64,000 nucleotides of DNA from Lathyrus oleraceus (lineage: Eukaryota; Streptophyta; Magnoliopsida; Fabales; Fabaceae). The notes beneath the pieces were generated by a model. That model was given only the letters and a program-made list of their open reading frames with translations, was not told the DNA's origin and made no database searches. The position numbers were made by a program, and so were the translations under genes. Where the stretch lies: NCBI RefSeq assembly GCF_024323335.1, contig NC_066581.1, forward strand, positions 223,825,039 to 223,889,038. The letters are read 5' to 3'. The stretch's first letter is position 1. The number at the start of each line of letters is the position of its first letter. This document shows positions 34,114 through 63,281 of the stretch, piece after piece.

Positions 34114-35035
34114 TCAAGCAATGGAAATAATATTCCTGCTAATTGCAGGTACATAATAACAGTTCTCTAACTGAATTATTAAACCACTAGGTAAAGTCAA
34201 TACAAAAGTTCCTACGGCTAAAGCAGCAACCTTTGCTCCATAGCCAACTCGTAGGTCGATTTCACCTTTTGCCAAATCTCTACTCCCTTTTAGTCCCTTC
34301 ACATTTGTACAAATGTGAGAACTGCATCCAGTATCTAATACCCATGATGCAGAAGTAGATAAATTAATAACAAAAATACCTGAAGTTGAAGTCTCTACTC
34401 CATTCTTCTTATCTTCCAGGTACTTTGGGTAGTTCCTCTTCCAGTGTCCGGTCTTACCGCAATGGAAGCAGGTGCCTTCTTTTGCTATGCCTCCACTAGG
34501 CTTCAAAGCAGCAGTGGGTCTGGGATTGGCAACTTCCTTGCCTTTTCCCCTTATCACTCTGCTTAGTGGGCCTTTTGTTTTGTCTCTTTCCATTTCCGAT
34601 CATCAGAATGGACTTCCCTTTTGACTTCAGATTCTGCTCGGCAGTTCTTAACATGGCGAGCAGTTCAGGAAGAGATTTGTCCATATCAATCATATTGAAA
34701 TTTAGGACAAATTAACTGAAACTATCTGGCAACGATTGCAAGATCAAATCAGTTGCAAGTTCCTTTTCGAGGGGAAAACCCAATCATCTTGAGTACATGG
34801 GGACCTACAGGGGCTCCCTCAGCTAACTTGCTTTGAAAAAGGGCTTTTGAAACTTCAAACCTCTCATGCCTTGCTTGCTCTTGATAGAGCATCTTCAGGT
34901 GTTCGATCATATCGAACACTGACATGTTCTCATGTTGCTTTTGCAATTCCGAGTTCATGGTAGCTAGCATGAGACAAGCAGTCTCATTGGCATCATCGAC
35001 ATGCTTCTTATAAGCATCTCTTTCTGCCTTGCGGG
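34114..35035 (-). pseudogene. Copia gag (partial), zinc knuckle and protease
   Basis: Gag fragment (about 35035-34749) with HLKMLYQEQARHERFEVSKA, then a frame break, then a zinc knuckle CFHCGKTGHWKRNY whose final Cys is replaced by Tyr, and the protease active site WVLDTGCSSHIC. The N terminus is cut by E3 at 35036. Confidence 0.85.
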
Positions 35036-37899
35036 TGTAAGACCCCAATTTTGTCCCTAAGATCCCTCATGGCATCATCCCATATCATTCATTGCCTCAA
35101 GGATCTTTGTGCCCCTTACCTCCTTTCCTGTGGGTGGGTTAGCTTTTGAGTGTGATTCTTGATCACCAAGCATGTTTTGCATATGTATATCATTGCTTTT
35201 CTTTTTATCTTTAACCAAAGGTACAAAAATGTGTCATCTAACCTTTGCCTTGCAGATGAAGCAATCTTAGGTCAAAGCAGTCAAAGGCAGTCATTGAGCA
35301 ATAGATGGTGGCCATTCTTGAGAATTTGGACCCCATGATCATTCATAAGAGTTCATATGAGCCATGATATCATTTTGAATCAAAATCCCAAGTGGTAGAG
35401 GCTTGAATTTCATCAGGACATAGCTAGGTCATCTGAAGACCTAGAAAAGTCAACTGCCAGGTCAACTGTTGGATTTGGAGGTGGGAAGTGATTAGAAATA
35501 CTCCATTCATGTTCAAACAAGTCTCATTTTACATTTCAAACATCAACATTGAAGAAAATAAAGTCAGGTCAAAACTTTCCAAAAATAGAAAGTGACCTAT
35601 AATTCAAAATTGCCAAAAATGGAAAGGTTTTAACCTAACTTCAACTTCAAATTACATCATCAAGAAAGCTTCAAATGAAATTTTGTTGAACATGAACGTT
35701 GTAGATCTTTCTCTCCCATTTCCAAAAAGTCCAAGATCATCCATTTCTCATATGTGGTTAAGGAGATATGATCAAATCATGGCAAGGTGTACATGGAGAT
35801 TCAAATGTGCATAACTTCTCAACCAATTGTCCAATTCAAGTGGCTCTTTTTTGTACATTCTTCTCTTTTTTGTACATTCAAATGTGCATTGCATTACATC
35901 AATTCTCATCACATAATTATTTGCATTTCACTTGAATTTTTGGAGGGAAAAACTATAATTTGAAATTGGTGCATTGTTTAAGCATGGTACCATTGCATTT
36001 AGCTCCAAAATGATGTTTTAAGTGAAAATCAAGTGAATCACGTGCACTGTTCATCATGCACACCATGCATAAGGTGAATTTGCTAATTTGCATTTTACAT
36101 CTTCTTTTTACTAATTCCATTTGCCAATTGCTTAAACATGATTAGGGAAGTGATTAAGGAGAAGTATATATAGCAAATCATAACAGATTTTCTGCTAACA
36201 ACACTTCATTTTTCAGATCTAGATCTAGAATACAAAACTTTTCTCTCAAAATTTTCTTCCATTTTCTTCATTTCCAATCCAATTTCTTGCTTAATTCTTG
36301 TTGTTGAGTTGTTTTTGAGCAGGATTACACATAGAATCATAGCAATTTGTGCAGCATTGAAGCATTTGTGAAGCTTGAAGCTACCATGGCAAATCCAAAT
36401 TCTGGCAAAATCGTGTGCACTTGAGCTTCGAGTTCTCTCCTAATCAACTTCACAAGCATCATAGAGGAGATTTTGAGCACTGCAAGGCTTGGACAACACC
36501 AAATTCGATTCTGCTCTCCAAGAGGTTACAGATTCGACCTCTCTAATTCTCGAAATTATTATGCTAATGTGATAGATAATTGAATGCTGAGTAGATTGAG
36601 CTCTAAATCGTGTGAATCCATGCATAATTGAGTGAGATATGGTTGTTCAAAGTTTTGATGTTAAATCTTCTTTCATTTGATCCATGCATGTTTAGTTGTT
36701 TCTTGATGATTTGTTTGTGGATTCATGTTGTATGATGCAAGATCTTTAAAATGATATGCGCCATGCCTATTTCTGTGCATTTTGAAAATTTCTGGAAAAT
36801 CTGGATGAAGATCTTCATGATCTTCATCCTGTTCTTCGCTTGTTCTTCATTTCCTGCGAATTTTGTTGCAACCTTCATCGTTACCTGCGAATTTTCATGC
36901 AACGTTCATGTTTCCTGCGGATTTCCCAGCGTTTGCATGCATAGCTTAGGGTTCGTATGTTATTGGTACACGTATGCGCATGCATGGCGAAGTGATTGGC
37001 TTACCTTGGTTTGACTGAGCCACGCAGGCATTGACCGGTCAGGTCAATTAATGAAACGACCGCGTTTCATTTAGCCTGGCGCCAACTTTCAAATTGTGCA
37101 TTGGTTCGATTCTCAGCTACGCATGTTTTCAAATGTGCTTCATGATATTTTACATCTCCCTCCATTTTGTTCCATGCTAATTCTTCATGTTTTTTTATTT
37201 TTTCATCATCTTCTAAAATTCATATTAAATTGAAAATAGCTCCAAAAAATGTGTGGTTTTTTGCTTGATGTCACATTTTCTGTCTAGAATTTTATGACCA
37301 TTTTTTCAAAAATTGTGCTTGGCTGGTTTTTAATTTTGCCTAGGGTTTGTTAACATATATGCTTCTTGTACCTTGCCTTGCTTCTTCATTTGTGAAATGC
37401 TGGTTGTTTATCCAAAGAATCTGAAAATTGACATGATGAAACTAGACTCTTGGCTTGACATTATGGTTTTGATTTGATATTTTTACCGTTTGTGGTTTCT
37501 ATTTTATGATCATGTGAATGTAGGTGTGACAATTTGTGTCACACCTTTGCTTGTTCTTCTTATGTGATGTGTTTGCCTTACCTATTGATCTTCAAATACT
37601 CTGATTTTTTGTAGGATACATATTATGGATGATGTGAATGAGCATGAATTTTCTTGGAATTATTTGATTGATTTCTGATTTTATTGAGATTTTTCATTCT
37701 GGTTGGTCACATTGGTGCTTTGAAATTGCTTTGAACTTCAATTGATTGTGAAATACTTTTGGTATATGATATTGATGTGAGACCTTTTGGATTGTCTTAA
37801 GATGTGTTTGAAGTTGATCCATGTTAATTTTTAGCTTCTGTTTTAAATTTTTTCTCCATCTTTGACCCTAGGCTTTGACCTAGTGGTTTGCCTCTCATC
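35036..37899 (+). other. Left single-copy arm of E3 LTR
   Basis: No gene. Contains the presumed promoter near 36165. Small ORFs (for example 36751-37014) have no recognisable product and show no sign of coding. Confidence 0.7.
36165..36172 (+). promoter_or_regulatory. TATA box of E3 LTR
   Basis: TATATATA in GAAGTATATATAGC, about 1.13 kb into the LTR; transcription would start about 30 bp downstream and run through the tandem array before the PBS. Confidence 0.6.
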
Positions 37900-40800
37900 T
37901 TTGAGCTTTGTTTTCAGGTTGAACATCCAAGTTATATGGTTCATGATGCTCCATCATTTGAGCATTTGATGTCTACCTTTGTCTACTAACATTGTGTGTT
38001 TTGTAGGGTTGTTAACTCACTTGAGTTGGACTTGTGGCTTATGCCTTTGCTTATTGGGTTTGACTGTTGATATTGATGTTGTTTAATTGTCTGAGTTGTA
38101 TACTGATTTGTTTGATGTTTCCACAGGTACATTAGTTGCTTAAGTTCATTTTGAACTTGCTTTTGCTTGGTTGCTTAACCACTTAGGTATAATTTCTCTT
38201 CTTCATGTAGTCTGGAAGACCTACTGTTACTTGGTAGGCACCTGTCTGAAGTCCTCCTTAAGAGGCAATGCTTGTGTTTGTTTATCTTTGTGCCAAGCAG
38301 GAAAAGTCCTTTGATAAGGCAATTGGCAGATAAAAGAGATGTGTAATCCATCTCCTGCTATTCAGTGTGTCATCCCTTTGCTCACATTACATGTTGACGC
38401 ATTGTGGATATTAACCCAAGATCTATAGAGTCATTCTCTTGTGGAGAAGAGTTCCAACTTTCTGAACTCCCACACTTTCTGTTATTCAAAGCTCTCCCAG
38501 GCCAGGGATAAGAGCTATGAGACACACCCCTCATCTCCATTTCATCTGCTTCACCCTAACTCTCAATGTTAGGGTTAAGAGCACAACATACCCCATTCCA
38601 GTTGACTGTAAAGTCTAACCTTGCTTGAGCCTAATTGCTTGTGTATAGTGTGTGCTAATTGACTTGTTTGTCTGATTGTTTGTTTCATCTGTGCACATTT
38701 GCTTGTGTGCCTTTGTGCATTTATCATAATTAATTGAACATCATTGCATGATCATGATTCATATCCTTGTGACATCTTTGTTTCTCCATTGAGGATCCAA
38801 TTGTAAGTCCATTTATTGGCCATTGTCTCCTATGATTTGGAAGGAGTCGAGTGTAAGACCATATATTGGCAACTTGTTTCCTTTTGCTTATTGCTCTTGT
38901 TTGCTTTTTGTATGTGAGGATTCAATTGTAAGTCCATGTTATTGGCAGTTGTTTCCCATGATCATCCTTTAGGAGATTGGAATAAGTCCATATATTGGCA
39001 TCTGGTATCCTTGTTTGTTTTGTTTTAGGAGATTAGTATAAGTCCATTGATTGGCATCTGATATCCATGTTTGTTTTAGGAGATTGGTGTAAATCCATTG
39101 ATTGGTATCCGGTATCCACCTTTATTTGTGAGATTGGTGTAAGTCCATTAATTGGCATCCGGCATCCATTTGCTTTGTTTATTGGTTATTGCTCATTTGC
39201 CTATTCCAAAGGAATCACTTGGATCATCTACATATGATCTCAAGAGGTGAACATCTAAGAAGTTTTACACTCCCTCACCCCCTCCCATTCTTTTGTTTCC
39301 TAAACCTTCATTTTGCATGTTAACCCAAACTTGAAATATTGTGCAAACATTATCATCTCTTTTCAAATTTGAGCTTTGTTTTCAGGTTGAACATCCAAGT
39401 TATATGGTTCATGATGCTCCATCATTTGAGCATTTGATGTCTACCTTTGTCTACTAACATTGTGTGTTTTGTAGGGTTGTTAACTCACTTGAGTTGGACT
39501 TGTGGCTTATGCCTTTGCTTATTGGGTTTGACTGTTGATATTGATGTTGTTTAATTGTCTGAGTTGTATACTGATTTGTTTGATGTTTCCACAGGTACAT
39601 TAGTTGCTTAAGTTCATTTTGAACTTGCTTTTGCTTGGTTGCTTAACCACTTAGGTATAATTTCTCTTCTTCATGTAGTCTGGAAGACCTACTGTTACTT
39701 GGTAGGCACCTGTCTGAAGTCCTCCTTAAGAGGCAATGCTTGTGTTTGTTTATCTTTGTGCCAAGCAGGAAAAGTCCTTTGATAAGGCAATTGGCAGATA
39801 AAAGAGATGTGTAATCCATCTCCTGCTATTCAGTGTGTCATCCCTTTGCTCACATTACATGTTGATGCATTGTGGATATTAACCCAAGATCTATAGAGTC
39901 ATTCTCTTGTGGAGAAGAGTTCCAACTTTCTGAACTCCCACACTTTCTGTTATTCAAAGCTCTCCCAGGCCAGGGATAAGAGCTATGAGACACACCCCTC
40001 ATCTCCATTTCATCTGCTTCACCCTAACTCTCAATGTTAGGGTTAAGAGCACAACATACCCCATTCCAGTTGACTGTAAAGTCTAACCTTGCTTGAGCCT
40101 AATTGCTTGTGTATAGTGTGTGCTAATTGACTTGTTTGTCTGATTGTTTGTTTCATCTGTGCACATTTGCTTGTGTGCCTTTGTGCATTTATCATAATTA
40201 ATTGAACATCATTGCATGATCATGATTCATATCCTTGTGACATCTTTGTTTCTCCATTGAGGATCCAATTGTAAGTCCATTTATTGGCCATTGTCTCCTA
40301 TGATTTGGAAGGAGTCGAGTGTAAGACCATATATTGGCAACTTGTTTCCTTTTGCTTATTGCTCTTGTTTGCTTTTTGTATGTGAGGATTCAATTGTAAG
40401 TCCATGTTATTGGCAGTTGTTTCCCATGATCATCCTTTAGGAGATTGGAATAAGTCCATATATTGGCATCTGGTATCCTTGTTTGTTTTGTTTTAGGAGA
40501 TTAGTATAAGTCCATTGATTGGCATCTGATATCCATGTTTGTTTTAGGAGATTGGTGTAAATCCATTGATTGGTATCCGGTATCCACCTTTATTTGTGAG
40601 ATTGGTGTAAGTCCATTAATTGGCATCCGGCATCCATTTGCTTTGTTTATTGGTTATTGCTCATTTGCCTATTCCAAAGGAATCACTTGGATCATCTACA
40701 TATGATCTCAAGAGGTGAACATCTAAGAAGTTTTACACTCCCTCACCCCCTCCCATTCTTTTGTTTCCTAAACCTTCATTTTGCATGTTAACCCAAACTT

Positions 40801-43800
40801 GAAATATTGTGCAAACATTATCATCTCTTTTCAAATTTGAGCTTTGTTTTCAGGTTGAACATCCAAGTTATATGGTTCATGATGCTCCATCATTTGAGCA
40901 TTTGATGTCTACCTTTGTCTACTAACATTGTGTGTTTTGTAGGGTTGTTAACTCACTTGAGTTGGACTTGTGGCTTATGCCTTTGCTTATTGGGTTTGAC
41001 TGTTGATATTGATGTTGTTTAATTGTCTGAGTTGTATACTGATTTGTTTGATGTTTCCACAGGTACATTAGTTGCTTAAGTTCATTTTGAACTTGCTTTT
41101 GCTTGGTTGCTTAACCACTTAGGTATAATTTCTCTTCTTCATGTAGTCTGGAAGACCTACTGTTACTTGGTAGGCACCTGTCTGAAGTCCTCCTTAAGAG
41201 GCAATGCTTGTGTTTGTTTATCTTTGTGCCAAGCAGGAAAAGTCCTTTGATAAGGCAATTGGCAGATAAAAGAGATGTGTAATCCATCTCCTGCTATTCA
41301 GTGTGTCATCCCTTTGCTCACATTACATGTTGATGCATTGTGGATATTAACCCAAGATCTATAGAGTCATTCTCTTGTGGAGAAGAGTTCCAACTTTCTG
41401 AACTCCCACACTTTCTGTTATTCAAAGCTCTCCCAGGCCAGGGATAAGAGCTATGAGACACACCCCTCATCTCCATTTCATCTGCTTCACCCTAACTCTC
41501 AATGTTAGGGTTAAGAGCACAACATACCCCATTCCAGTTGACTGTAAAGTCTAACCTTGCTTGAGCCTAATTGCTTGTGTATAGTGTGTGCTAATTGACT
41601 TGTTTGTCTGATTGTTTGTTTCATCTGTGCACATTTGCTTGTGTGCCTTTGTGCATTTATCATAATTAATTGAACATCATTGCATGATCATGATTCATAT
41701 CCTTGTGACATCTTTGTTTCTCCATTGAGGATCCAATTGTAAGTCCATTTATTGGCCATTGTCTCCTATGATTTGGAAGGAGTCGAGTGTAAGACCATAT
41801 ATTGGCAACTTGTTTCCTTTTGCTTATTGCTCTTGTTTGCTTTTTGTATGTGAGGATTCAATTGTAAGTCCATGTTATTGGCAGTTGTTTCCCATGATCA
41901 TCCTTTAGGAGATTGGAATAAGTCCATATATTGGCATCTGGTATCCTTGTTTGTTTTGTTTTAGGAGATTAGTATAAGTCCATTGATTGGCATCTGATAT
42001 CCATGTTTGTTTTAGGAGATTGGTGTAAATCCATTTATTGGTATCCGGTATCCACCTTTATTTGTGAGATTGGTGTAAGTCCATTAATTGGCATCCGGCA
42101 TCCATTTGCTTTGTTTATTGGTTATTGCTCATTTGCCTATTCCAAAGGAATCACTTGGATCATCTACATATGATCTCAAGAGGTGAACATCTAAGAAGTT
42201 TTACACTCCCTCACCCCCTCCCATTCTTTTGTTTCCTAAACCTTCATTTTGCATGTTAACCCAAACTTGAAATATTGTGCAAACATTATCATCTCTTTTC
42301 AAATTTGAGCTTTGTTTTCAGGTTGAACATCCAAGTTATATGGTTCATGATGCTCCATCATTTGAGCATTTGATGTCTACCTTTGTCTACTAACATTGTG
42401 TGTTTTGTAGGGTTGTTAACTCACTTGAGTTGGACTTGTGGCTTATGCCTTTGCTTATTGGGTTTGACTGTTGATATTGATGTTGTTTAATTGTCTGAGT
42501 TGTATACTGATTTGTTTGATGTTTCCACAGGTACATTAGTTGCTTAAGTTCATTTTGAACTTGCTTTTGCTTGGTTGCTTAACCACTTAGGTATAATTTC
42601 TCTTCTTCATGTAGTCTGGAAGACCTACTGTTACTTGGTAGGCACCTGTCTGAAGTCCTCCTTAAGAGGCAATGCTTGTGTTTGTTTATCTTTGTGCCAA
42701 GCAGGAAAAGTCCTTTGATAAGGCAATTGGCAGATAAAAGAGATGTGTAATCCATCTCCTGCTATTCAGTGTGTCATCCCTTTGCTCACATTACATGTTG
42801 ATGCATTGTGGATATTAACCCAAGATCTATAGAGTCATTCTCTTGTGGAGAAGAGTTCCAACTTTCTGAACTCCCACACTTTCTGTTATTCAAAGCTCTC
42901 CCAGGCCAGGGATAAGAGCTATGAGACACACCCCTCATCTCCATTTCATCTGCTTCACCCTAACTCTCAATGTTAGGGTTAAGAGCACAACATACCCCAT
43001 TCCAGTTGACTGTAAAGTCTAACCTTGCTTGAGCCTAATTGCTTGTGTATAGTGTGTGCTAATTGACTTGTTTGTCTGATTGTTTGTTTCATCTGTGCAC
43101 ATTTGCTTGTGTGCCTTTGTGCATTTATCATAATTAATTGAACATCATTGCATGATCATGATTCATATCCTTGTGACATCTTTGTTTCTCCATTGAGGAT
43201 CCAATTGTAAGTCCATTTATTGGCCATTGTCTCCTATGATTTGGAAGGAGTCGAGTGTAAGACCATATATTGGCAACTTGTTTCCTTTTGCTTATTGCTC
43301 TTGTTTGCTTTTTGTATGTGAGGATTCAATTGTAAGTCCATGTTATTGGCAGTTGTTTCCCATGATCATCCTTTAGGAGATTGGAATAAGTCCATATATT
43401 GGCATCTGGTATCCTTGTTTGTTTTGTTTTAGGAGATTAGTATAAGTCCATTGATTGGCATCTGATATCCATGTTTGTTTTAGGAGATTGGTGTAAATCC
43501 ATTGATTGGTATCCGGTATCCACCTTTATTTGTGAGATTGGTGTAAGTCCATTAATTGGCATCCGGCATCCATTTGCTTTGTTTATTGGTTATTGCTCAT
43601 TTGCCTATTCCAAAGGAATCACTTGGATCATCTACATATGATCTCAAGAGGTGAACATCTAAGAAGTTTTACACTCCCTCACCCCCTCCCATTCTTTTGT
43701 TTCCTAAACCTTCATTTTGCATGTTAACCCAAACTTGAAATATTGTGCAAACATTATCATCTCTTTTCAAATTTGAGCTTTGTTTTCAGGTTGAACATCC

Positions 43801-46800
43801 AAGTTATATGGTTCATGATGCTCCATCATTTGAGCATTTGATGTCTACCTTTGTCTACTAACATTGTGTGTTTTGTAGGGTTGTTAACTCACTTGAGTTG
43901 GACTTGTGGCTTATGCCTTTGCTTATTGGGTTTGACTGTTGATATTGATGTTGTTTAATTGTCTGAGTTGTATACTGATTTGTTTGATGTTTCCACAGGT
44001 ACATTAGTTGCTTAAGTTCATTTTGAACTTGCTTTTGCTTGGTTGCTTAACCACTTAGGTATAATTTCTCTTCTTCATGTAGTCTGGAAGACCTACTGTT
44101 ACTTGGTAGGCACCTGTCTGAAGTCCTCCTTAAGAGGCAATGCTTGTGTTTGTTTATCTTTGTGCCAAGCAGGAAAAGTCCTTTGATAAGGCAATTGGCA
44201 GATAAAAGAGATGTGTAATCCATCTCCTGCTATTCAGTGTGTCATCCCTTTGCTCACATTACATGTTGATGCATTGTGGATATTAACCCAAGATCTATAG
44301 AGTCATTCTCTTGTGGAGAAGAGTTCCAACTTTCTGAACTCCCACACTTTCTGTTATTCAAAGCTCTCCCAGGCCAGGGATAAGAGCTATGAGACACACC
44401 CCTCATCTCCATTTCATCTGCTTCACCCTAACTCTCAATGTTAGGGTTAAGAGCACAACATACCCCATTCCAGTTGACTGTAAAGTCTAACCTTGCTTGA
44501 GCCTAATTGCTTGTGTATAGTGTGTGCTAATTGACTTGTTTGTCTGATTGTTTGTTTCATCTGTGCACATTTGCTTGTGTGCCTTTGTGCATTTATCATA
44601 ATTAATTGAACATCATTGCATGATCATGATTCATATCCTTGTGACATCTTTGTTTCTCCATTGAGGATCCAATTGTAAGTCCATTTATTGGCCATTGTCT
44701 CCTATGATTTGGAAGGAGTCGAGTGTAAGACCATATATTGGCAACTTGTTTCCTTTTGCTTATTGCTCTTGTTTGCTTTTTGTATGTGAGGATTCAATTG
44801 TAAGTCCATGTTATTGGCAGTTGTTTCCCATGATCATCCTTTAGGAGATTGGAATAAGTCCATATATTGGCATCTGGTATCCTTGTTTGTTTTGTTTTAG
44901 GAGATTAGTATAAGTCCATTGATTGGCATCTGATATCCATGTTTGTTTTAGGAGATTGGTGTAAATCCATTGATTGGTATCCGGTATCCACCTTTATTTG
45001 TGAGATTGGTGTAAGTCCATTAATTGGCATCCGGCATCCATTTGCTTTGTTTATTGGTTATTGCTCATTTGCCTATTCCAAAGGAATCACTTGGATCATC
45101 TACATATGATCTCAAGAGGTGAACATCTAAGAAGTTTTACACTCCCTCACCCCCTCCCATTCTTTTGTTTCCTAAACCTTCATTTTGCATGTTAACCCAA
45201 ACTTGAAATATTGTGCAAACATTATCATCTCTTTTCAAATTTGAGCTTTGTTTTCAGGTTGAACATCCAAGTTATATGGTTCATGATGCTCCATCATTTG
45301 AGCATTTGATGTCTACCTTTGTCTACTAACATTGTGTGTTTTGTAGGGTTGTTAACTCACTTGAGTTGGACTTGTGGCTTATGCCTTTGCTTATTGGGTT
45401 TGACTGTTGATATTGATGTTGTTTAATTGTCTGAGTTGTATACTGATTTGTTTGATGTTTCCACAGGTACATTAGTTGCTTAAGTTCATTTTGAACTTGC
45501 TTTTGCTTGGTTGCTTAACCACTTAGGTATAATTTCTCTTCTTCATGTAGTCTGGAAGACCTACTGTTACTTGGTAGGCACCTGTCTGAAGTCCTCCTTA
45601 AGAGGCAATGCTTGTGTTTGTTTATCTTTGTGCCAAGCAGGAAAAGTCCTTTGATAAGGCAATTGGCAGATAAAAGAGATGTGTAATCCATCTCCTGCTA
45701 TTCAGTGTGTCATCCCTTTGCTCACATTACATGTTGATGCATTGTGGATATTAACCCAAGATCTATAGAGTCATTCTCTTGTGGAGAAGAGTTCTAACTT
45801 TCTGAACTCCCACACTTTCTGTTATTCAAAGCTCTCCCAGGCCAGGGATAAGAGCTATGAGACACACCCCTCATCTCCATTTCATCTGCTTCACCCTAAC
45901 TCTCAATGTTAGGGTTAAGAGCACAACATACCCCATTCCAGTTGACTGTAAAGTCTAACCTTGCTTGAGCCTAATTGCTTGTGTATAGTGTGTGCTAATT
46001 GACTTGTTTGTCTGATTGTTTGTTTCATCTGTGCACATTTGCTTGTGTGCCTTTGTGCATTTATCATAATTAATTGAACATCATTGCATGATCATGATTC
46101 ATATCCTTGTGACATCTTTGTTTCTCCATTGAGGATCCAATTGTAAGTCCATTTATTGGCCATTGTCTCCTATGATTTGGAAGGAGTCGAGTGTAAGACC
46201 ATATATTGGCAACTTGTTTCCTTTTGCTTATTGCTCTTGTTTGCTTTTTGTATGTGAGGATTCAATTGTAAGTCCATGTTATTGGCAGTTGTTTCCCATG
46301 ATCATCCTTTAGGAGATTGGAATAAGTCCATATATTGGCATCTGGTATCCTTGTTTGTTTTGTTTTAGGAGATTAGTATAAGTCCATTGATTGGCATCTG
46401 ATATCCATGTTTGTTTTAGGAGATTGGTGTAAATCCATTGATTGGTATCCGGTATCCACCTTTATTTGTGAGATTGGTGTAAGTCCATTAATTCGCATCC
46501 GGCATCCATTTGCTTTGTTTATTGGTTATTGCTCATTTGCCTATTCCAAAGGAATCACTTGGATCATCTACATATGATCTCAAGAGGTGAACATCTAAGA
46601 AGTTTTACACTCCCTCACCCCCTCCCATTCTTTTGTTTCCTAAACCTTCATTTTGCATGTTAACCCAAACTTGAAATATTGTGCAAACATTATCATCTCT
46701 TTTCAAATTTGAGCTTTGTTTTCAGGTTGAACATCCAAGTTATATGGTTCATGATGCTCCATCATTTGAGCATTTGATGTCTACCTTTGTCTACTAACAT

Positions 46801-49643
46801 TGTGTGTTTTGTAGGGTTGTTAACTCACTTGAGTTGGACTTGTGGCTTATGCCTTTGCTTATTGGGTTTGACTGTTGATATTGATGTTGTTTAATTGTCT
46901 GAGTTGTATACTGATTTGTTTGATGTTTCCACAGGTACATTAGTTGCTTAAGTTCATTTTGAACTTGCTTTTGCTTGGTTGCTTAACCACTTAGGTATAA
47001 TTTCTCTTCTTCATGTAGTCTGGAAGACCTACTGTTACTTGGTAGGCACCTGTCTGAAGTCCTCCTTAAGAGGCAATGCTTGTGTTTGTTTATCTTTGTG
47101 CCAAGCAGGAAAAGTCCTTTGATAAGGCAATTGGCAGATAAAAGAGATGTGTAATCCATCTCCTGCAATTCAGTGTGTCATCCCTTTGCTCACATTACAT
47201 GTTGATGCATTGTGGATATTAACCCAAGATCTATAGAGTCATTCTCTTGTGGAGAAGAGTTCCAACTTTCTGAACTCCCACACTTTCTGTTATTCAAAGC
47301 TCTCCCAGGCCAGGGATAAGAGCTATGAGACACACCCCTCATCTCCATTTCATCTGCTTCACCCTAACTCTCAATGTTAGGGTTAAGAGCACAACATACC
47401 CCATTCCAGTTGACTGTAAAGTCTAACCTTGCTTGAGCCTAATTGCTTGTGTATAGTGTGTGCTAATTGACTTGTTTGTCTGATTGTTTGTTTCATCTGT
47501 GCACATTTGCTTGTGTGCCTTTGTGCATTTATCATAATTAATTGAACATCATTGCATGATCATGATTCATATCCTTGTGACATCTTTGTTTCTCCATTGA
47601 GGATCCAATTGTAAGTCCATTTATTGGCCATTGTCTCCTATGATTTGGAAGGAGTCGAGTGTAAGACCATATATTGGCAACTTGTTTCCTTTTGCTTATT
47701 GCTCTTGTTTGCTTTTTGTATGTGAGGATTCAATTGTAAGTCCATGTTATTGGCAGTTGTTTCCCATGATCATCCTTTAGGAGATTGGAATAAGTCCATA
47801 TATTGGCATCTGGTATCCTTGTTTGTTTTGTTTTAGGAGATTAGTATAAGTCCATTGATTGGCATCTGATATCCATGTTTGTTTTAGGAGATTGGTGTAA
47901 ATCCATTGATTGGTATCCGGTATCCACCTTTATTTGTGAGATTGGTGTAAGTCCATTAATTGGCATCCGACATCCATTTGCTTTGTTTATTGGTTATTGC
48001 TCATTTGCCTATTCCAAAGGAATCACTTGGATCATCTACATATGATCTCAAGAGGTGAACATCTAAGAAGTTTTACACTCCCTCACCCCCTCCCATTCTT
48101 TTGTTTCCTAAACCTTCATTTTGCATGTTAACCCAAACTTGAAATATTGTGCAAACATTATCATCTCTTTTCAAATTTGAGCTTTGTTTTCAGGTTGAAC
48201 ATCCAAGTTATATGGTTCATGATGCTCCATCATTTGAGCATTTGATGTCTACCTTTGTCTACTAACATTGTGTGTTTTGTAGGGTTGTTAACTCACTTGA
48301 GTTGGACTTGTGGCTTATGCCTTTGCTTATTGGGTTTGACTGTTGATATTGATGTTGTTTAATTGTCTGAGTTGTATACTGATTTGTTTGATGTTTCCAC
48401 AGGTACATTAGTTGCTTAAGTTCATTTTGAACTTGCTTTTGCTTGGTTGCTTAACCACTTAGGTATAATTTCTCTTCTTCATGTAGTCTGGAAGACCTAC
48501 TGTTACTTGGTAGGCACCTGTCTGAAGTCCTCCTTAAGAGGCAATGCTTGTGTTTGTTTATCTTTGTGCCAAGCAGGAAAAGTCCTTTGATAAGGCAATT
48601 GGCAGATAAAAGAGATGTGTAATCCATCTCCTGCTATTCAGTGTGTCATCCCTTTGCTCACATTACATGTTGATGCATTGTGGATATTAACCCAAGATCT
48701 ATAGAGTCATTCTCTTGTGGAGAAGAGTTCTAACTTTCTGAACTCCCACACTTTCTGTTATTCAAAGCTCTCCCAGGCCAGGGATAAGAGCTATGAGACA
48801 CACCCCTCATCTCCATTTCATCTGCTTCACCCTAACTCTCAATGTTAGGGTTAAGAGCACAACATACCCCATTCCAGTTGACTGTAAAGTCTAACCTTGC
48901 TTGAGCCTAATTGCTTGTGTATAGTGTGTGCTAATTGACTTGTTTGTCTGATTGTTTGTTTCATCTGTGCACATTTGCTTGTGTGCCTTTGTGCATTTAT
49001 CATAATTAATTGAACATCATTGCATGATCATGATTCATATCCTTGTGACATCTTTGTTTCTCCATTGAGGATCCAATTGTAAGTCCATTTATTGGCCATT
49101 GTCTCCTATGATTTGGAAGGAGTCGAGTGTAAGACCATATATTGGCAACTTGTTTCCTTTTGCTTATTGCTCTTGTTTGCTTTTTGTATGTGAGGATTCA
49201 ATTGTAAGTCCATGTTATTGGCAGTTGTTTCCCATGATCATCCTTTAGGAGATTGGAATAAGTCCATATATTGGCATCTGGTATCCTTGTTTGTTTTGTT
49301 TTAGGAGATTAGTATAAGTCCATTGATTGGCATCTGATATCCATGTTTGTTTTAGGAGATTGGTGTAAATCCATTGATTGGTATCCGGTATCCACCTTTA
49401 TTTGTGAGATTGGTGTAAGTCCATTAATTCGCATCCGGCATCCATTTGCTTTGTTTATTGGTTATTGCTCATTTGCCTATTCCAAAGGAATCACTTGGAT
49501 CATCTACATATGATCTCAAGAGGTGAACATCTAAGAAGTTTTACACTCCCTCACCCCCTCCCATTCTTTTGTTTCCTAAACCTTCATTTTGCATGTTAAC
49601 CCAAACTTGAAATATTGTGCAAACATTATCATCTCTTTTCAAA
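37900..49643 (+). repeat. Eight tandem copies of a 1468-bp LTR segment
   Basis: The same sequence (GAACATCCAAGTTATATGG) occurs at 37921, 39389, 40857, 42325, 43793, 45261, 46729 and 48197, each exactly 1468 bp apart. Copies run 37900-39367, 39368-40835, 40836-42303, 42304-43771, 43772-45239, 45240-46707, 46708-48175 and 48176-49643. Differences seen are single bases: copy 1 (GACGC at about 38395), copy 3 (TTTATT at about 42034), copies 6 and 8 sharing two changes (TCTAAC at 45793 and 48728; ATTCGC near 46493 and 49429), and copy 7 with two of its own. No coding capacity. Confidence 0.97.
38791..39170 (+). repeat. Internal short subrepeats within each 1468-bp unit (copy 1 shown)
   Basis: Seven degenerate subrepeats of about 45-65 bp share a core of the form GTAAGTCCATTNATTGGCA followed by a TCC-ending tail. 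Later ones begin GAGATTGGTGTAAGTCC. They recur in all eight copies at the same offset (first at 40259 in copy 2). Confidence 0.85.
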
Positions 49644-50465
49644 TTAGAAACCTAGGCCTTAAGCCTTTGATTTTTCAAACTTCATTTTCATAATACTTCT
49701 TTGAATTGAATCCTAATCACACTTTGACCATCTTTTGTGAATAAATTCTAATTGATTAACTTCACTCATTCAATTATTTTGTGGCTTTGTCCATTCTTGA
49801 TAAGTTTTCATACATTAGCCATAGGTTTGATTTATCCTAGTTGGTTGATGTTAATCTCACCTTTTGTCCTTAGTGATTGAATTGTAAGACTTCCTTGCTT
49901 ATTATAGGGTTAACCCCTCACTAGCAAGTTGAAGCTTTTCTCATATGGTGGACTTGTTGTTTGTATAAGGTTGAGTTTTCTCCCGTGGATAACGAAAGAC
50001 CTTAGGGCTTCTGTTTTAAAATGAACCCACTCATATTTTGGAAATCTTTTAGCCGAACTACGGCGTTTTGATCCTTTACCTTTTCATGGAAAGGTACGTA
50101 GGCAACGGGTTCATCCGTTCAAACACAAAAATAATAACTTGTATATTCTTTTCTCATCCCTTCATTCATGTTTGCACAATAAACATTTTCATAAACAAAT
50201 AACATTTCATTTCAACAAGTGTGAAAAGGGCTCCCTAGGAGTACCTAGGATGTTTTGGGTGCCTAACACCTTCCCATTGCGTAATTTTACCCTTACCCAG
50301 ATTCTCTGATCTTTCATTAGTTTTCTATGTGTAAAACTTCTTAGGCTTTTGTTCGCTTTTTAGCCATTCCTTTGGATAAATAAAAGTGCGGTGGCGACTC
50401 GATTCCTTGTATGCTTTGCTTTTGGTTTAATCAATAAATCATAAAGTGAGGAATACACCGCTACA
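49644..50465 (+). other. Right single-copy arm of E3 LTR
   Basis: Follows the last unit without interruption (TTAGAAACC). Contains the conserved CCTAGG dyad block and the internal TGGCGACTC. No gene. Confidence 0.7.
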
Positions 50466-50471
50466 GAAAAG

Positions 50472-50489
50472 TGGCGACTCTGCTGGGGA
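50472..50489 (+). promoter_or_regulatory. Primer-binding site of E3, tRNA-Arg type
   Basis: TGGCGACTCTGCTGGGGA, identical to the E1 site, six bases after the LTR end. Confidence 0.9.
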
Positions 50490-51319: not shown

Positions 51320-51473
51320 GGGATACAATGAGCTTTTCCATGACCTTTGTCTGGTGTGACTTGCTTGATCCTTGAGTGTGATTGTTGCATTCATGCATTC
51401 ATCTACATTCATGTCATCAAAATTAGAAAATTTTCAAGGAACTTAAAAGGGTTTATTTGCAAAATTTTCAGAC

Positions 51474-52922
51474 ATGGAAAGACCGAAAAGGCATACCAAG
51501 AAGTACAGCTTTAGACAGCCTGATGTGAAAGAGTTAAGGAATCTGACATCTTATGTACTAGATCCCTTGGGTTTCAAGGCTCGGTATGGGAAGCTTCTGC
51601 CTCTGTTGACTACTCAGGTTGATGAGGGACTGATGAGTACTTTGGCACAGTTTTATGATCCTCTGTATCATTGCTTCTCTTTTCCGGACTTCAAGTTGTT
51701 GCCTACCTTGGAGGAGTATGCTCATCTTGTGGGTATTCCTATTCTGGATCAGGTGCCGTTCAGTGGCTTAGAGAGTATTCCGACTGCTCGAGAGATCGCG
51801 AACTTGTTGCACATAGATGATTCCTTGATTAAAGCTAATCTGACTGTCAAAGGTGGAATTCAGGGTCTTCCTTCCGAGTTCCTCATCGCTCAAGCTACTG
51901 TGTATGGGAAGGCCAGGAGTGAGGATGCCTTTGAGGCTTTATTTGTGCTGCTCATCTATGGGTTGGTGTTGTTCCCCAACATCGACAAATTTGTGGATGC
52001 GAACGCCATTAGGATCTTTTCAGTTCTTAATCCCGTTCCGACTCTGTTGGGTGATGCATATGTCTCTTTGCATCTGAGGAATGCAAAGGGTGGAGGAGTT
52101 ATTGTGTGCTGTTTGCCTCTGCTGTATAAGTGGTTTATTTCTCACTTACCGCAGACGGTCGCTTTCAAGGAGAACAAGGGATGTCTACGGTGGTCTCAGA
52201 GACTTATGTCTCTCACTAATGATGATATCTCTTGGTATGATCGCGTGTATGATAATGTTCAGATCATTGACTATTGTGGTGAATTCCTTAATGTGCCTCT
52301 TCTTGGTACATGTGGTGGGATCAGCTACAATCCTATCTTAGCACGTCGTCAACTTGGGTTCCCCCTAAAGGATAAACCTCATAACATTATGTTAGAAGGT
52401 GTGTTCTTTCAGGAGGGTAAAGATCCCCAAGGCCTGAAAGCCAGGATGGTCCGCGCTTGGCGCAATATTCATAAGAAGGGTAGGAATGAGTTGGGTCCGA
52501 AAAATTGCATTGCTTTGGAGCCATATACCTCTTGGGTCAGACAGAGAGTTGCTGTGTACCTTATGTCGTATGATCATCCGAGACCTACACCGTTGGATGT
52601 GGCTGGGCCTTCAACCCTCCCCACCCAAGATGTAGAGGAGTTGAGAGAAGAAGACCTTTCACGTGCTTGGATTCGTGAAAGAGAAGAGTTGCTTCATCAA
52701 CTTAAGGAAAAGGACACTCTGATTGAGTTTCTCGAGCATCAGGTGATCGATGATCCGAATGATACTTGGACTTCTCTGCTTCCTCAGTCTTCCAAATTCT
52801 GGAAGAGTGAGTATGATCGACTTGCAAAGGAGAAAGCGGATATGGAAGCAGCCTATGAGAGAGAGATCAAGAAGCTGTGTGCATCTCGTCTTCCAGCATC
52901 CCGAGCTTCTAGGGATCCATAG
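51474..52922 (+). CDS. Ogre ORF1 protein (PMD-like domain + coiled coil), 482 aa
   Basis: Uninterrupted ORF between leader and gag; the ATG follows a TTTTCAG. Residues about 20-360 form one conserved region also found in E2. It has FYDPLY (60-65), PTLEEYAHLVGI (77-88), a hydrophobic segment with FVLLIYGLVLFPN, and LPLLYKWFISHLPQ. The spacing of F, D, Y, F, P, P-T-L and G at residues 60-87 equals that at residues 189-216 of the E4 antisense protein, which looks like a plant mobile domain; I also recall an uncharacterised plant family (DUF7745) of this type. The C terminus (about 400-475) is charged and heptad-like (REELLHQLKEKDTLIEFLEH), probably a coiled coil. The role of ORF1 is unknown. No active-site motif is seen. 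Confidence 0.85.
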   Translation: MERPKRHTKKYSFRQPDVKELRNLTSYVLDPLGFKARYGKLLPLLTTQVDEGLMSTLAQFYDPLYHCFSFPDFKLLPTLEEYAHLVGIPILDQVPFSGLESIPTAREIANLLHIDDSLIKANLTVKGGIQGLPSEFLIAQATVYGKARSEDAFEALFVLLIYGLVLFPNIDKFVDANAIRIFSVLNPVPTLLGDAYVSLHLRNAKGGGVIVCCLPLLYKWFISHLPQTVAFKENKGCLRWSQRLMSLTNDDISWYDRVYDNVQIIDYCGEFLNVPLLGTCGGISYNPILARRQLGFPLKDKPHNIMLEGVFFQEGKDPQGLKARMVRAWRNIHKKGRNELGPKNCIALEPYTSWVRQRVAVYLMSYDHPRPTPLDVAGPSTLPTQDVEELREEDLSRAWIREREELLHQLKEKDTLIEFLEHQVIDDPNDTWTSLLPQSSKFWKSEYDRLAKEKADMEAAYEREIKKLCASRLPASRASRDP

Positions 52923-53222
52923 GATGTTTATTTTCCTTTTCCCTTGTAATGATCAAAAAATGTTGTACTTCTTTGTTCCAAATATATTTGATGAGATATT
53001 TTCCATATGCTATTAAATGCTTAAATATTCAAATTTGCAAATAAATGCCCTAAAGGTTCCTTGAAAATAAAATAAAGCATATGCACCAGCATTGCATGCA
53101 TCATTTTGCATAAGCAGGTGTTGTTCTGGTCTTCTTGTCTGTAGCCTAACTCTGTGCTCTTCATTTATTTTGAAGACAAGCTGACTCACCGGTACTATAC
53201 CAGAGCCAATTCTGCCAGAGTG
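52923..53222 (+). other. Spacer between ORF1 and gag in E3
   Basis: AT-rich except for its last 55 bases, which can be read in the gag frame (KLTHRYYTRAN) upstream of the first ATG and are conserved in E2. A possible splice acceptor lies just before them (TTGAAG|ACAAG). Confidence 0.5.
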
Positions 53223-56200
53223 ATGGATCAACTTGAGCAAGAGAACAGAGAATTGAAGGAAGAGGTCGCTCGTCTGAGTGCTCTGATGGAGCAGTTTCTG
53301 TCTGCTCAAAACCAACCTTCTCCACCTCCTGCAACTCCTCCTCAGAGGATGGTGATATCTGAAGTCGTTGCTCCGACCGTGCCAGCTGCCAATGCTCATT
53401 TCATGTCTAATGCCATGCCAGCCGGGTTTCCGTGGGGTATGCCTCCGGGTTTCATGCCAGATATTCCAGCTCTAACTTTTGCTTCTATGCCGGCATCTAG
53501 CCCGGTCCTTGTTGCTGCTCCTCCTGTCGTGCATACCATTCACAGGGTAGACGACACCATCTATCATTCTGAGCCGTCTGAGGGCCCAGATGTTAATGAG
53601 AAGATGGATGCGATGAATGATCAATTCCTTGAGCTGCGTAAGGAATTGAAGACCCTCCGAGGGAAAGATCTGTTTGGCAAGTTTGCTGCTGAACTTTGCC
53701 TTGTTCCCGGTGTAAAGATCCCAATCAAGTTCAAACTGCTTGACTTTGAAAAATACAAGGGGAACACTTGTCCTCTCGCTCACCTAGTCATGTATGCCAG
53801 GAAAATGTCTACGCAAACAGATAATGATCAGCTTTTGATTCATTACTTCCAGGATAGTTTGTCCGGTACGGCTCTTCGCTGGTATATGAGCCTTGATAGT
53901 GCAAACATCCGATCCTTCAATGATCTTGGCGAAGCCTTCGTCAAGCAATACAAATATAATGTTGATATGGCGCCTGACCGTGATCAACTCAGGGCCATGT
54001 CTCAGAAGGATAAAGAGACATTTAAGGAGTACGCCCAGAGGTGGCGAGAGTTGGTTGCTCAGATTACTCCTCCGCTGGAAGAGAAAGAAATGACTAAGAT
54101 CTTTTTGAAGACTCTTAGCTCATTCTATTATGAGCGGATGGTTGCGAGTGCTCCCTCTGATTTCACCGAGATGGTGAACATGGGGATGCGTTTGGAAGAA
54201 GGAGTCCGTGAGGGACGTCTGTCGAAGGATGAGAGCTCTTCTAAATGGTATGGGGCGTTTAAGAAGAAAGATGGGGAGGCACATGTTGTGCAGTCCCATG
54301 CTAAACCAAGAAGACCCTCTGTCAAGAGGAAGCCGGTACGTCATCAGCACCAGGTGGCTCATATATCACCTGTCTTTAGAGAGAATTCTCAGTATCAGCA
54401 ACCTAATCAGCATCAGCATCAGCAACAACCTCAGTATCAGCAGCAACACCGTCCACAGCAACAGGCTTACCAGCCTCGTGGCAATACCAGCAATCAGGCC
54501 AATCTGAACTATGATAGGAAGAAGATCAGCTTCGATCCTATTCCTATGTCATACGCTGAATTGTATCCTTCCTTGTTGGAAAGGAAACTGGTTACTCCAA
54601 GGGATCCTCCAGCTGTGCCTGCGAACCCGCAGTGGTGGTATAAGCCAGATCAACACTGTGTTTATCATTCCGGTGCTCCGGGACATAATATTGAGAGCTG
54701 CTTTCCATTGAAGACTAAGGTTCAAGACCTTATGCGATGCGGTATTCTGAGCTTCGAGGACTCAGGCCCCAATGTTACAAAGAACCCATTGCCCGAGCAT
54801 GGGAAATCAGTGAACATGGTCCAGGGGTGCCCTGGGAAGTACAAAGTCAAATATGTGAGTCATATTCGACAGTCATTGGTCGAGTTGCATCGTTTGCTGT
54901 GTCAGTACAGCTATATGGAGCATGACCATGACAAATGCCGCATTTGTTCGGTTAACAGACTGGGTTGTCGCCAAGTGCGAAGAGAGCTTCAAGAGCTGTT
55001 AGATGAAGGTACCATAGAGATTCTTCAGAATCGAAATGTTGATGAAGATGAACCAGAAGTCAATGTTATTTCTCCTGTGTTCAAGTTACCCGAGCCTGTT
55101 GTCATCTGTTATGATGGTAGCAAGTCGAAGGTCTCTCCTTCATTGGTGATCAAACCTGCAGGCCCTGTGCCTTATTCTTCGGATAAAGCTATCCCTTTCA
55201 GGTACAATCCCGTTGCTGTGGAAGATGGGAAAGAAGTGTTGTTGCCTTCAACCTTCGTGGTTAATATTGCTGATGTGAGCGGGTTGACCCATAGTGGTCG
55301 TGTGTTTTCTGCACCCTCGAAGCCTCATGTTGTTTCTGATTCCGTTGAGCGCCCGGTTGGGACTGCTGTGAATGTTTAGAATCCGGCACTTGTTGTTGCC
55401 AAACCCTCCTCTGTACAAAAGACTCCTGCTTCTTCTGTTGGCCCGAGTGGCACTGTGAATGAAGAGTGTGATGAGATGCTGAGGCTCATCAAGAAGAGTG
55501 AGTACAATGTTGTAGACCAGCTTCTACAAACACCGTCCAAAATCTCCGTTCTATCTTTGCTTCTGAATTCAGAACCCCATAGGGAGGCTCTACAGAAAGT
55601 ATTGGATTTGGCCTATGTTGATCATGATGTCATAATAGAACAGTTTGATAGTATTGTTGCAAACATTACTGCTTGCAACACTTTGAGTTTCTGTGACGCT
55701 GATCTCCCTGAGGAGGGAAGAGACCACAACATGGCTCTACATATTTCTATGAACTGCAAGAATGACGCCATGTCCAACGTGCTGGTGGACACTGGGTCAT
55801 CTTTGAATGTATTGCCAAAGACCACTCTTTCGAAATTATCATATCAAGGACCTCCCATGAGGCAGAGTGGTGTTGTTGTGAAAGCTTTTGATGGGTCGCG
55901 TAAGACCGTGATTGGGGAAGTTGATCTCCCAATCAAAATTGGACCAAGTGATTTCCAAGTTACCTTCCAGGTTATGGATATCCACCCATCTTATAGCTGT
56001 CTCCTTGGTAGACCATGGATTCACGAGGCTGGTGTCGTGACATCCACCCTACACCAGAAGCTGAAATTTGTCAAGAATAAGAAACTGGTTGTGGTAGGGG
56101 GAGAAAAGGCTCTCCTGGTTAGCCACCTGTCTTCCTTCTCGTATATTGATGCTGAGGATGAAGTTGGAACTCCTTTCCAAGCTTTATCTATTGCTGAGCC

Positions 56201-56515
56201 GATTGAGAAGAAGTCTCCTTCATTTGCTTCCTACCGTGATGCGAAACTGGCCATTGAATGTGGTGCAGTCGCTGGTTTGGGGAAGATGATTGAGCTTGAA
56301 GACAATAAATCTCGGGCTGGTATTGGCTATTCTTATGGGGCATTCAACGAGCACGGACTGTTCAAGAGTGGAGGCTTCATCCATGCTGATCAGACTGAAG
56401 AAGCTGCTACTATCTTGGAAGAGGATGCAGAGGATTTGAGCAACTTCATCATACCTGGTGGTGTCTGCCACAATTGGGTCGCTGTAGATGTTCCTACAGT
56501 CATTCATAGATCAGA
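53223..56515 (+). pseudogene. gag-pro: E3 gag-pro, one in-frame stop
   Basis: First ATG at 53223. Order: coiled-coil start (LEQENRELKEEVARL), Pro/Ala-rich linker, Gag core with FKEYAQRWRELV (about 54020-54060), Q/H-rich stretch (about 54390-54470), variant zinc knuckle CVYHSGAPGHNIESC (about 54655-54705), Cys/His cluster HDHDKCRICSV, then the aspartic protease with intact active site VDTGSS (D-T-G at 55788-55796) and LLGRPWIHEAG. A TAG at 55377-55379 lies between the gag and protease parts in the same frame; it may be a mutation, though readthrough cannot be excluded. The end overlaps the intron donor: TAA at 56517-56519 is used only if the intron is retained. Confidence 0.9.
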
Positions 56516-56781
56516 GTAATTTGTTCACTTTGTTCAAAACCCTTCTCCCATGCCAAAAGGAGAAGTGATGACACTGTTGGCAGCATTTATATAATGATAT
56601 TTCATTCAATTAATGCATTGTTAAACATTTGTTTTTCCTTTTGTTTTCACTTTTTGCTTTTGCATAATATCAATGATCACAAAAAACCCTAAAAACAAGA
56701 ATAAAAGCAATCTTTTTCATATGCATAATGGTTTGCTTGTTTAAATTCTGAAGTTTTTCATTAACCAAAATCATTATGCAG
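56516..56781 (+). other. Intron between pro and pol in E3
   Basis: Donor GTAATTTG at 56516, acceptor TATGCAG ending at 56781, 266 bases. Splicing joins GA to G and continues in the pol frame. Site, phase and donor sequence equal those of E1 and E2. The intron is AT-rich with T-runs. Confidence 0.78.
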
Positions 56782-58124
56782 GTTGATTCTAAAACCCATT
56801 GAACATAATGATCCAACGCCATCTCCCAATTTTGAATTCCCTGTATTCGAGGCAGAGGAAGATGATGTTGAAGAGATTCCTGATGAGATTACCCGTCTCC
56901 TTGAGCACGAGAAGAGGATCATTCAGCCGCATCTCGAAGATCTAGAAACAGTCAACTTGGGGTCTGAAGATTGTGTTCGCATGGTGAAGATTGGGGCACT
57001 TCTTGAAGAGTCTGTCAAGAAGGGGTTGATCAGTCTGCTACGAGAATATTCCGATATCTTCGCTTGGTCATATGAAGACATGCCGGGTCTAGATACAGAT
57101 ATTGTGCAACATTTCCTGCCTTTGAAGCCTGAGTGCGTGCCTGTGAAGCAGAAGCTCAGAAGAACTCATCCAGATATGGCAGTGAAGATCAAAGAGGAAA
57201 ATCAGAAGCAAATTGATGCGGGGTTTCTGGTGACTTCTACATATCCTCAATGGGTGGCCAATATTGTGCCGGTTCCTAAGAAAGACGGAAAAGTCCGTAT
57301 GTGTGTTGATTACAGAGATTTGAATAAAGCTAGTCCTAAAGATGGTTTCCCTCTACCACACATTGATATGTTGGTAGACAATACAGCTAAATTCAAAGTG
57401 TTTTCGTTTATGGACGGATTTTCCGGTTATAATCAAATCAAGATGGCACCCGAAGATATGGAGAAGACAACATTCATCACACCTTGGGGAACATTCTGTT
57501 ATCGAGTGATGCCCTTCGGTTTGAAGAACGCCTGAGCCACGTATCAACGAGCTATGACTACCTTGTTTCATGACATGATGCACAAGGAGATAGAGGTCTA
57601 TGTTGATGACATGATTGCTAAGTCCCGAACGGAAGTTGAACATGTTGAGCATTTGTTGAAGCTTTTTCAGCGTCTGAGGAAGTTTAGACTTCGCCTGAAT
57701 CCGAACAAATGTACATTTGGAGTCCGTTCCGGCAAGTTGTTGGGTTTTGTTGTTAGCGAGAGAGGTATTGAGGTTGATCCTGCAAAGGTCAAAGCAATAC
57801 AAGAAATGCCTGCACCCAAAACTAAGAAGCAAGTCCGAGGTTTTCTTGGCCGCTTGAACTACATTTCCAGATTTATATCCCACATGACTGCCACATGTGC
57901 GCCGATATTCAAGCTCCTTCAGAAAGATCAGTCTCATGATTGGACCGAAGATTGCCAGAAAGCTTTCGACAGTATCAAAGAGTATCTGTCTGAACCTCCG
58001 ATCTTGTCTCCGCCTGTAGAAGGAAGACCTCTGATTATGTATTTGACCGTTCTTGAAGACTCGATGGGTTGTGTACTCGGTCAGCAAGACGAATCAGGGA
58101 AGAAAGAATCTGCTATTTACTACC
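56782..58124 (+). pseudogene. pol: E3 pol (RT and start of RNase H), cut by E4
   Basis: Acidic linker, then RT with VPKKDGKVRMCVDYRDLNK, FSFMDGFSGYNQIKMAPEDM and the YVDD active site (57599-57610), leading into the RNase H region (MYLTVLEDSMGCVLGQ). A TGA at 57533-57535, in the conserved segment before ATYQRAM, breaks the frame once. Reading stops at 58124 where E4 is inserted (IYYL, then foreign sequence). The rest of RNase H and integrase must lie to the right of the window. Confidence 0.92.
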
Positions 58125-58973
58125 TGTTCGCAGTGAATTTTGGCGAACAACCTCTGGTTTACCAAATCTTGTAGAATTGGGTTACTTGCAGGATCAACCA
58201 CACAAATCCTAGGACATGTGCAGATCTAGATGGTCTTGAAGATGTCTAGAATCACTTTCATGTATTTCATTTTTGTTCTCTAAGTGTTTTACGTCGAAAT
58301 ATGTTGATTAAAACGTTAAGTAGATGTAAATTTAGCAAGATAAAGTAAATGGCGGAAAATAACTGACAAAATGTAAAGTGTCGAAAAGGAGAAAGTGCTG
58401 AAAGATAAATGACTGGAAAACATAAAAGAGATTTGTAAAGAACTTTAAACTTTATAAAATAAACTTTGAAGAAATTGGTGTTTGTTTACACATACATTTT
58501 CCAAATATGACTCTTTTCTCTCACACGGGTACTTTGAGCGTTTTCAGGAATTTTGTACAAGTAATTCTTCACACCCTTTTCTGATAACAACTACCCTATT
58601 TATATACAAATAACATAACTGTCACTAACGGTTAAATCCTAAAACTGTGACGAACGGCTTTCATCTTTTCGCCAGATGCTTCCACGCGTCTTCTGTCAAA
58701 CGTTACAACTTTTTAAATTCAAATTTACACTTTAAGTCGAAACGACGTCTTCCTTTAGGATTTTTTGTCGAATTATCAAGATACTGCAATGTCTTCCATG
58801 TCTTGTCAAAGTACTTTTCTAGCTGCACATATCATGTCGAAATATCAAAGCTTCCATTTTTGTCGAAGTGTCGAGCCACACTTATCAACCGAATCGTTTT
58901 ATCCCATGTCATCATTTGTCGAAACAGTCATTTTGTACACCAAATCTCATGGCGTCGAAAACGCACGTATACA
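58125..58973 (-). repeat. 3' LTR of E4 (849 bp)
   Basis: On the minus strand it starts TGTATACGTGCG at 58973 and ends GCGAACA at 58125, where E3 pol resumes. A minus-strand TATA motif TATATAAATAG lies at 58607-58597, about 370 bp into the LTR. Only one LTR is visible. Confidence 0.75.
58597..58607 (-). promoter_or_regulatory. TATA box in E4 LTR (sense direction)
   Basis: TATATAAATAG on the minus strand at a normal distance from the LTR start; the same copy in the 5' LTR would drive the genomic RNA. Confidence 0.6.
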
Positions 58974-58986
58974 AATTGCCCCCCAG
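58974..58986 (-). promoter_or_regulatory. Polypurine tract of E4
   Basis: Minus-strand GCTGGGGGGCAATT directly before the LTR start. Confidence 0.72.
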
Positions 58987-63180: not shown

Positions 63181-63281
63181 TCGAATTTATTTAGCAACTC
63201 TCAGCCCTTTGAGGCTTTCTTTGTAATAACTTTTGAATGCCATTTTTATTTGGCCCATCTTATCACACTTATGTTTTGCAC
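63181..63281 (+). other. Short gap between convergent genes in E4
   Basis: 101 bases separate the stop of the antisense gene (63180) from the stop of pol on the other strand (63282). No clear AATAAA is seen on either strand, so the two transcripts probably overlap at their 3' ends. Confidence 0.5.

Follow-up and report, generated by a model that had tools for sequence, protein, structure and literature searches.

A 15.4-kb LTR with eight 1468-bp tandem units in a pea Ogre-type element, best explained by local amplification after insertion

The 5' LTR of the Ogre-type element E3 in Lathyrus oleraceus is 15,430 bp long and contains eight 1468-bp units; the 3' LTR of the same element holds one. 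We consider it highly probable that the array began with a joint made in the chromosome after E3 had inserted and then grew by homology-based copying, giving a young tandem repeat at a single locus in a broken element. The window, the whole stretch of DNA analysed, is 64,000 nucleotides of contig C3 (NC_066581.1), positions 223,825,039-223,889,038. Coordinates below are window positions unless a contig is named, and features lie on the plus strand unless stated otherwise.

Self-comparison of the window places the LTR at 35036-50465. It starts with TGTAAGACCCC at 35036 and ends with CGCTACA at 50465, giving TG...CA ends, and is preceded by GCGGG at 35031-35035. The eight copies are spaced at exactly 1468 bp and span 37902-49645 (11,744 bp), with a unit frame that is free by 2 bp. 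Chance is no explanation for them. The first and last copies both continue into single-copy arms within the same LTR, a left arm of 2866 bp (35036-37901) and a right arm of 820 bp (49646-50465). A first-pass annotation had described eight copies at this spacing, with such arms, inside one Ogre LTR, and self-comparison together with the LTR ends confirms this. Its length for the LTR after removal of seven copies also holds (15,430 - 7 x 1468 = 5154 bp); the actual 3' LTR is 5157 bp.

The units differ by very little, as the same annotation had reported. Leaving out the edge of unit 1, six sites vary among the eight units, all by substitution, and there are no indels in 11,744 bp. Two units differ by 0-4 bases, with a mean of 1.86 of 1468 (0.13%) and a maximum of 0.27%. 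Unit alignment gives unit 1 (37902-39369) a private C at unit position 497 and unit 3 (40838-42305) a private T at 1199. Units 2 (39370-40837), 4 (42306-43773) and 5 (43774-45241) are identical to one another. Unit 6 (45242-46709) has a T at 554 and a C at 1253, found elsewhere only in unit 8 (48178-49645), to which it is identical. Unit 7 (46710-48177) is alone among the units in having A at 458 and 1261. Every unit also includes a minisatellite with a period of 51-56 bp and about 3.9 copies, located by a repeat scan at 38968-39169 in unit 1 and recurring every 1468 bp; related LTRs also have repeats in this region of the unit.

The partner LTR lies 17 kb to the right of the window, at C3:223,903,502-223,908,658 (L009:1003-6159), where the first-pass annotation had proposed to look for it. 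It is the best genome match to the unit among the matches listed. It aligns end to end with the arms of the 5' LTR (left arm 50 substitutions and 3 gap columns, right arm 10 substitutions and no gap) and contains exactly one unit, of 1468 bp. The 5-bp target site duplication GCGGG stands before the 5' LTR and after the 3' LTR. Since the 3' LTR aligns to the arms and has the same flank, E3 is a full-length insertion with two LTRs of unequal length.

LTRs of several kilobases and an extra open reading frame (ORF) upstream of gag are typical of Ogre elements, whose primer binding site is complementary to tRNA-Arg and which also have an additional RNase H (aRH) domain. E3 has a 3' LTR of 5157 bp, and 15 of 20 related elements, those in which both LTR ends could be read by motif, have LTRs of 5076-5600 bp. 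A putative primer binding site region directly follows the 5' LTR (50466-50489). The coding region (51447-58125) contains, in order, a DUF7745 ORF and the Pfam domains Retrotrans_gag, Asp_protease_2, RVT_1 and RT_RNaseH_2. The 5-bp duplication is likewise that of Ogre (Ty3/gypsy, OTA/Tat clade).

E3 is no longer intact. A stop codon cuts its reverse transcriptase into two frames, and its pol is broken in RNase H at about 58,125 by a nested LTR element that fills the window from 58125 to 64000 and runs on to about 72,107 (window-equivalent), where E3 pol resumes. The nested element was delimited by an 849-bp terminal match, 98.94% alike. On the minus strand it has an integrase-like frame (63282-63998); the plus strand has two frames antisense to the element's own pol, one at 59386-61527 with a plant mobile domain (PF10536) and one at 62083-63180 with no Pfam match.

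The proposed history starts with the insertion of a full-length Ogre-type element whose two LTRs each had the normal length of about 5.15 kb; both then accumulated mutations, as is observed. Late in the life of the insertion, one chromosomal event would have linked position ~49,645 of the 5' LTR back to ~37,902, producing the first tandem copy. The joint, first seen at 39350-39386 and repeated at 1468-bp steps to make seven unit-unit junctions, connects CAAATT to TGAG, and two bases (TT) are common to both edges. It would have formed without long homology, by end joining or by microhomology-mediated template switching. The 2-bp overlap had been taken to suggest end joining. The shared TT is there, but an overlap of at least two bases is expected in 19% of random joints and occurred in 20.8% of 20,000 random breakpoints of the 3' LTR. 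With an overlap no greater than chance gives, end joining and template switching are indistinguishable, and we reject microhomology as proof of the former.

Once a second copy existed, 1468 bp of perfect homology would have allowed unequal sister-chromatid exchange or unit conversion to raise the count to eight. Copying between units went on later. Two derived sites, 699 bp from each other, are common to units 6 and 8 but absent from unit 7, and independent mutation gave sharing of this type in 0 of 200,000 simulations. At least one copying step therefore followed the first amplification. Duplication of a unit 5-6 block followed by two changes in unit 7 explains the pattern, as does conversion between units 6 and 8; the shared variants fit conversion and unequal exchange equally well. 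For satellites that derive from transposons, a first step of end joining and later non-allelic homologous recombination have been proposed (PMC12628747).

The strongest competitor to stepwise growth is a single burst, in which a 1468-bp circle was copied by rolling-circle replication and recombined back in place, adding many units at once. Seven identical junctions and near-identical units agree with it, and a burst could account for the first several units. The 6/8 variants missing from unit 7 demand later copying, so a burst alone is insufficient, and we regard this route as unlikely.

It is improbable, in our judgement, that the array is an assembly artefact, that is, a real locus with one, two or some other number of units. 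The copy number of eight does rest on one long-read assembly. The pea ZW6 assembly, which we take to be that of this genome, was built from PacBio Sequel reads with Canu and polished with Pilon (PMC9534762), a combination that can miscount or homogenise units, and the longest stretch of the array lacking a unit-specific mark is 3759 bp. Against this, there are eight unit-level marks, all of them substitutions and none indels, and an array of 11.7 kb is in principle within long-read reach. The alternation of like units 6 and 8 with a different unit 7 is also not what a simple assembly loop is expected to produce.

The array was found at one locus. We searched the genome (3,795,255,167 bases in 1550 contigs) with a 37-bp junction pattern at up to three mismatches and obtained seven matches, all inside the E3 5' LTR array; such a genome-wide junction count had been suggested at first pass. 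As a gauge of how many sites a pattern of this kind reaches, the unit's ordinary right edge (40 bp, up to three mismatches) gave 2,297 matches, 1156 forward and 1141 reverse, and its reversed-pattern control gave none. Applied to 21 test LTRs (L009 and L019-L038), the junction pattern would catch the same junction in 12, so more diverged relatives carrying it could escape; in this reach test the best half-matches were misplaced in three (L026, L036 and L038). The pattern is also blind to tandem duplications with other breakpoints in other LTRs. A phage collection search gave no match.

A second line of evidence comes from the related LTRs themselves. A search with the unit listed 39 places, one of which is the 3' LTR of E3 and 20 of which are relatives that were analysed further. 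The window's own eight units are absent from the 39, and a missing tandem match there therefore proves nothing alone. In the fetched sequences, a tandem copy of the segment was found in 0 of the 20 relatives. The shorter internal repeats among them are a 50-bp minisatellite. Two relatives, L026 and L036, have truncated LTRs and, in the same stretch, extra diverged LTR pieces (70-74% alike) with no tandem array; we read these pieces as neighbouring fragments. For relatives within the reach of the pattern, the array is thus a single locus and not a family trait. An inherited family trait, the condition under which the first-pass annotation would have withdrawn its claim of a local event, is rejected: within the reach of the pattern the junction was found only in the E3 array, which is missing in all 20 fetched relatives. 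A local event within one LTR fits the single-unit 3' LTR and a junction found nowhere else.

Both LTRs of an element derive from a single template and match each other at the moment of insertion. An array that is confined to one of them, with units that share post-insertion changes of the 5' LTR, therefore arose in the chromosome. Such changes were identified at the 12 sites where the 3' LTR has a different base from all eight units, using seven related LTRs (L002-L008; four insertions, judging by position) as the outgroup. Six sites changed on the 5' side, with agreement of 7/7 outgroup LTRs, and four on the 3' side. Unit site 1451, with A in the units and T or C elsewhere, is probably another 5'-side change, and the polarity of site 1070 is not readable with these LTRs.

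These comparisons practically exclude an origin of the array in reverse transcription, and we reject that origin. The scenario would have the array made by reverse transcription or present in the parent element, arriving with the insertion, after which the 3' LTR shrank to one copy. Repeats in the 3' untranslated region (UTR) of Ogre have indeed been hypothesised to form by abnormal strand transfer or illegitimate recombination (PMC7004042). For E3 it would have to accommodate a 3' LTR with a single unit that still measures exactly 1468 bp, at least six 5'-side changes present in all eight units and absent from the 3' LTR and 7/7 outgroup LTRs, and a junction found nowhere else in the genome; we give it very little credence. 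Of the two possibilities raised at first pass, an array that arose after insertion and one that made an exceptional template, the former is the better.

Amplification appears to have been late. The LTRs differ at 73 of 5154 sites (1.42%, compared with a mean of 0.13% between units). The left arm accounts for 50 of these, the right arm for 10 and the segment, with unit 2 compared to the 3' LTR, for 13. At least six changes common to all units and absent from the 3' LTR, set beside about one later change per unit, place the array in roughly the last tenth of the insertion's life. Six substitutions followed amplification, a mean of 1.0 per unit. Dated by counts per lineage (1 of 7 or 8), the array falls within the final ~12-14% of the time since insertion. 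The figure is 7% by a star estimate (95% range of the count 2.6-16%) and 19% by the deepest unit pair; homogenisation of units in the plant, or by Canu and Pilon in assembly and polishing, would make the array seem too young and these ratios too low. With substitution rates of 0.65-1.3e-8 per site and year, the insertion dates to 0.55-1.1 My and the array to 0.04-0.21 My; the ratio is more secure than the absolute dates.

By the time the array formed, E3 was probably already broken. The ends of the nested element differ at 9 of 849 sites, or 1.06% against at most 0.27% between any two units, which suggests that the nested element came first, an order that is a point estimate with a 95% range of 0.48-2.0% on the nested divergence.

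Two observations on divergence stand apart from the dating. The left arm differs from the 3' LTR by 1.74%, compared with 0.89% for the unit and 1.22% for the right arm (p = 0.07), and the higher left-arm value could reflect mutation context or unit homogenisation. Window position 39162 (unit 1261) is a G in CG context. Unit 7, the 3' LTR and outgroup LTR L006 have A there; this A is most simply a recurrent change and not shared history.

The array sits between a putative promoter and the primer binding site of the broken element. A TATA-like box, TATATATAG, lies at 36165-36173, and 18 of the 20 related LTRs have TATATA or TATAAA here; the remaining two, L026 and L036, gave no alignment. Transcription would start near 36195, about 30 bp downstream of the box; a literature search on the Ogre transcription start gave nothing of use. 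With that start, about 14 kb of a 5' LTR transcript would precede the primer binding site. The first-pass annotation saw here a difficulty for first-strand strong-stop DNA. It need not arise, since the array post-dates the insertion and pol is split by the nested element. Because pol is split, retrotransposition of E3 by its own proteins is not expected.

The array is probably without function, and we noticed no sign of one. Selection for a role such as a silencing nucleus or centromeric seed has a parallel in Lathyrus sativus, where Ogre-derived arrays expand mainly in primary constrictions (PMC7004042), but is very improbable for one young locus in a broken element.

Satellites derived from retrotransposons are known, and the E3 array belongs to a known kind. 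The statement at first pass that most known cases originate in 3' UTRs agrees with the Ogre-derived satellites of Lathyrus sativus, most of which derive from 3' UTR arrays (PMC7004042); it does not extend to the LTR-derived satellites on record, which include Sobo, St3-58 and others, RPCS and MALREP (PMC9659126; also PMC3648361), and the maize repeats CRM1TR and CRM4TR derive from LTR plus UTR (PMC3648361). No description of the E3 array locus was found in the open-licence literature.

Three systems are closest. Sobo of Solanum bulbocastanum likewise has a kilobase-scale monomer (4.7 kb) related to a retrotransposon LTR, that of Sore1 (PMC3648361, PMC9659126), but covers ~360 kb, whereas the eight units of the E3 array still sit in a single LTR that can be identified, and its partner LTR and target site duplication are present. 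CRM1TR and CRM4TR also derive wholly from one retrotransposon, and their authors propose illegitimate joining followed by homologous growth; unlike the E3 units, theirs span LTR and UTR, and their arrays, which are large and lie within or close to centromeres, started to form at least ~4 and ~1 My ago (PMC3648361). The Ogre 3' UTR repeats (Lathyrus FabTR, PMC7004042; pea PisTR-A, PMC9659126) come from the same lineage and plant tribe, and there too short in-element arrays seed longer ones. Their position is downstream of gag-pol, and they travel with the element when it moves, whereas the E3 array lies in the 5' LTR, arose post-insertion and is absent from the 20 fetched relatives.

The earlier suggestion that the array is an early stage of satellite DNA is plausible as an inference. 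Its monomer comes wholly from an LTR and is arranged head to tail; the long arrays or several loci of a satellite are not seen, only seven junctions at one locus. A bolder reading, which we hold tentatively and at somewhat less than even chances, is that E3 has caught a satellite at birth: a single genome still shows its ancestor (the 3' LTR), where the breaks lay, the target site, its relative age and at least one copying step after amplification. If so, the transition from one copy to an array, which later homogenisation usually erases, would be directly testable among pea lines.

In the literature examined, LTR-derived satellites are large arrays; E3 differs as a datable early stage at a single locus that keeps its unamplified twin in the same element. 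The twin dates the amplification relative to the insertion and reveals the breakpoints, so the origin of the first duplication, without long homology, can be separated from later growth with homology available. It is this readable history that is unusual, and the locus can be used to track copy-number change in living pea lines.

The window contains one further array. At 9269-10246, downstream of another retroelement's pol frames (4102-7539), lies a minisatellite array with periods of 37, 70, 105 and 179 bp. A 394-codon open frame with no Pfam match runs through this array, which resembles the hypervariable 3' region of Ogre elements.
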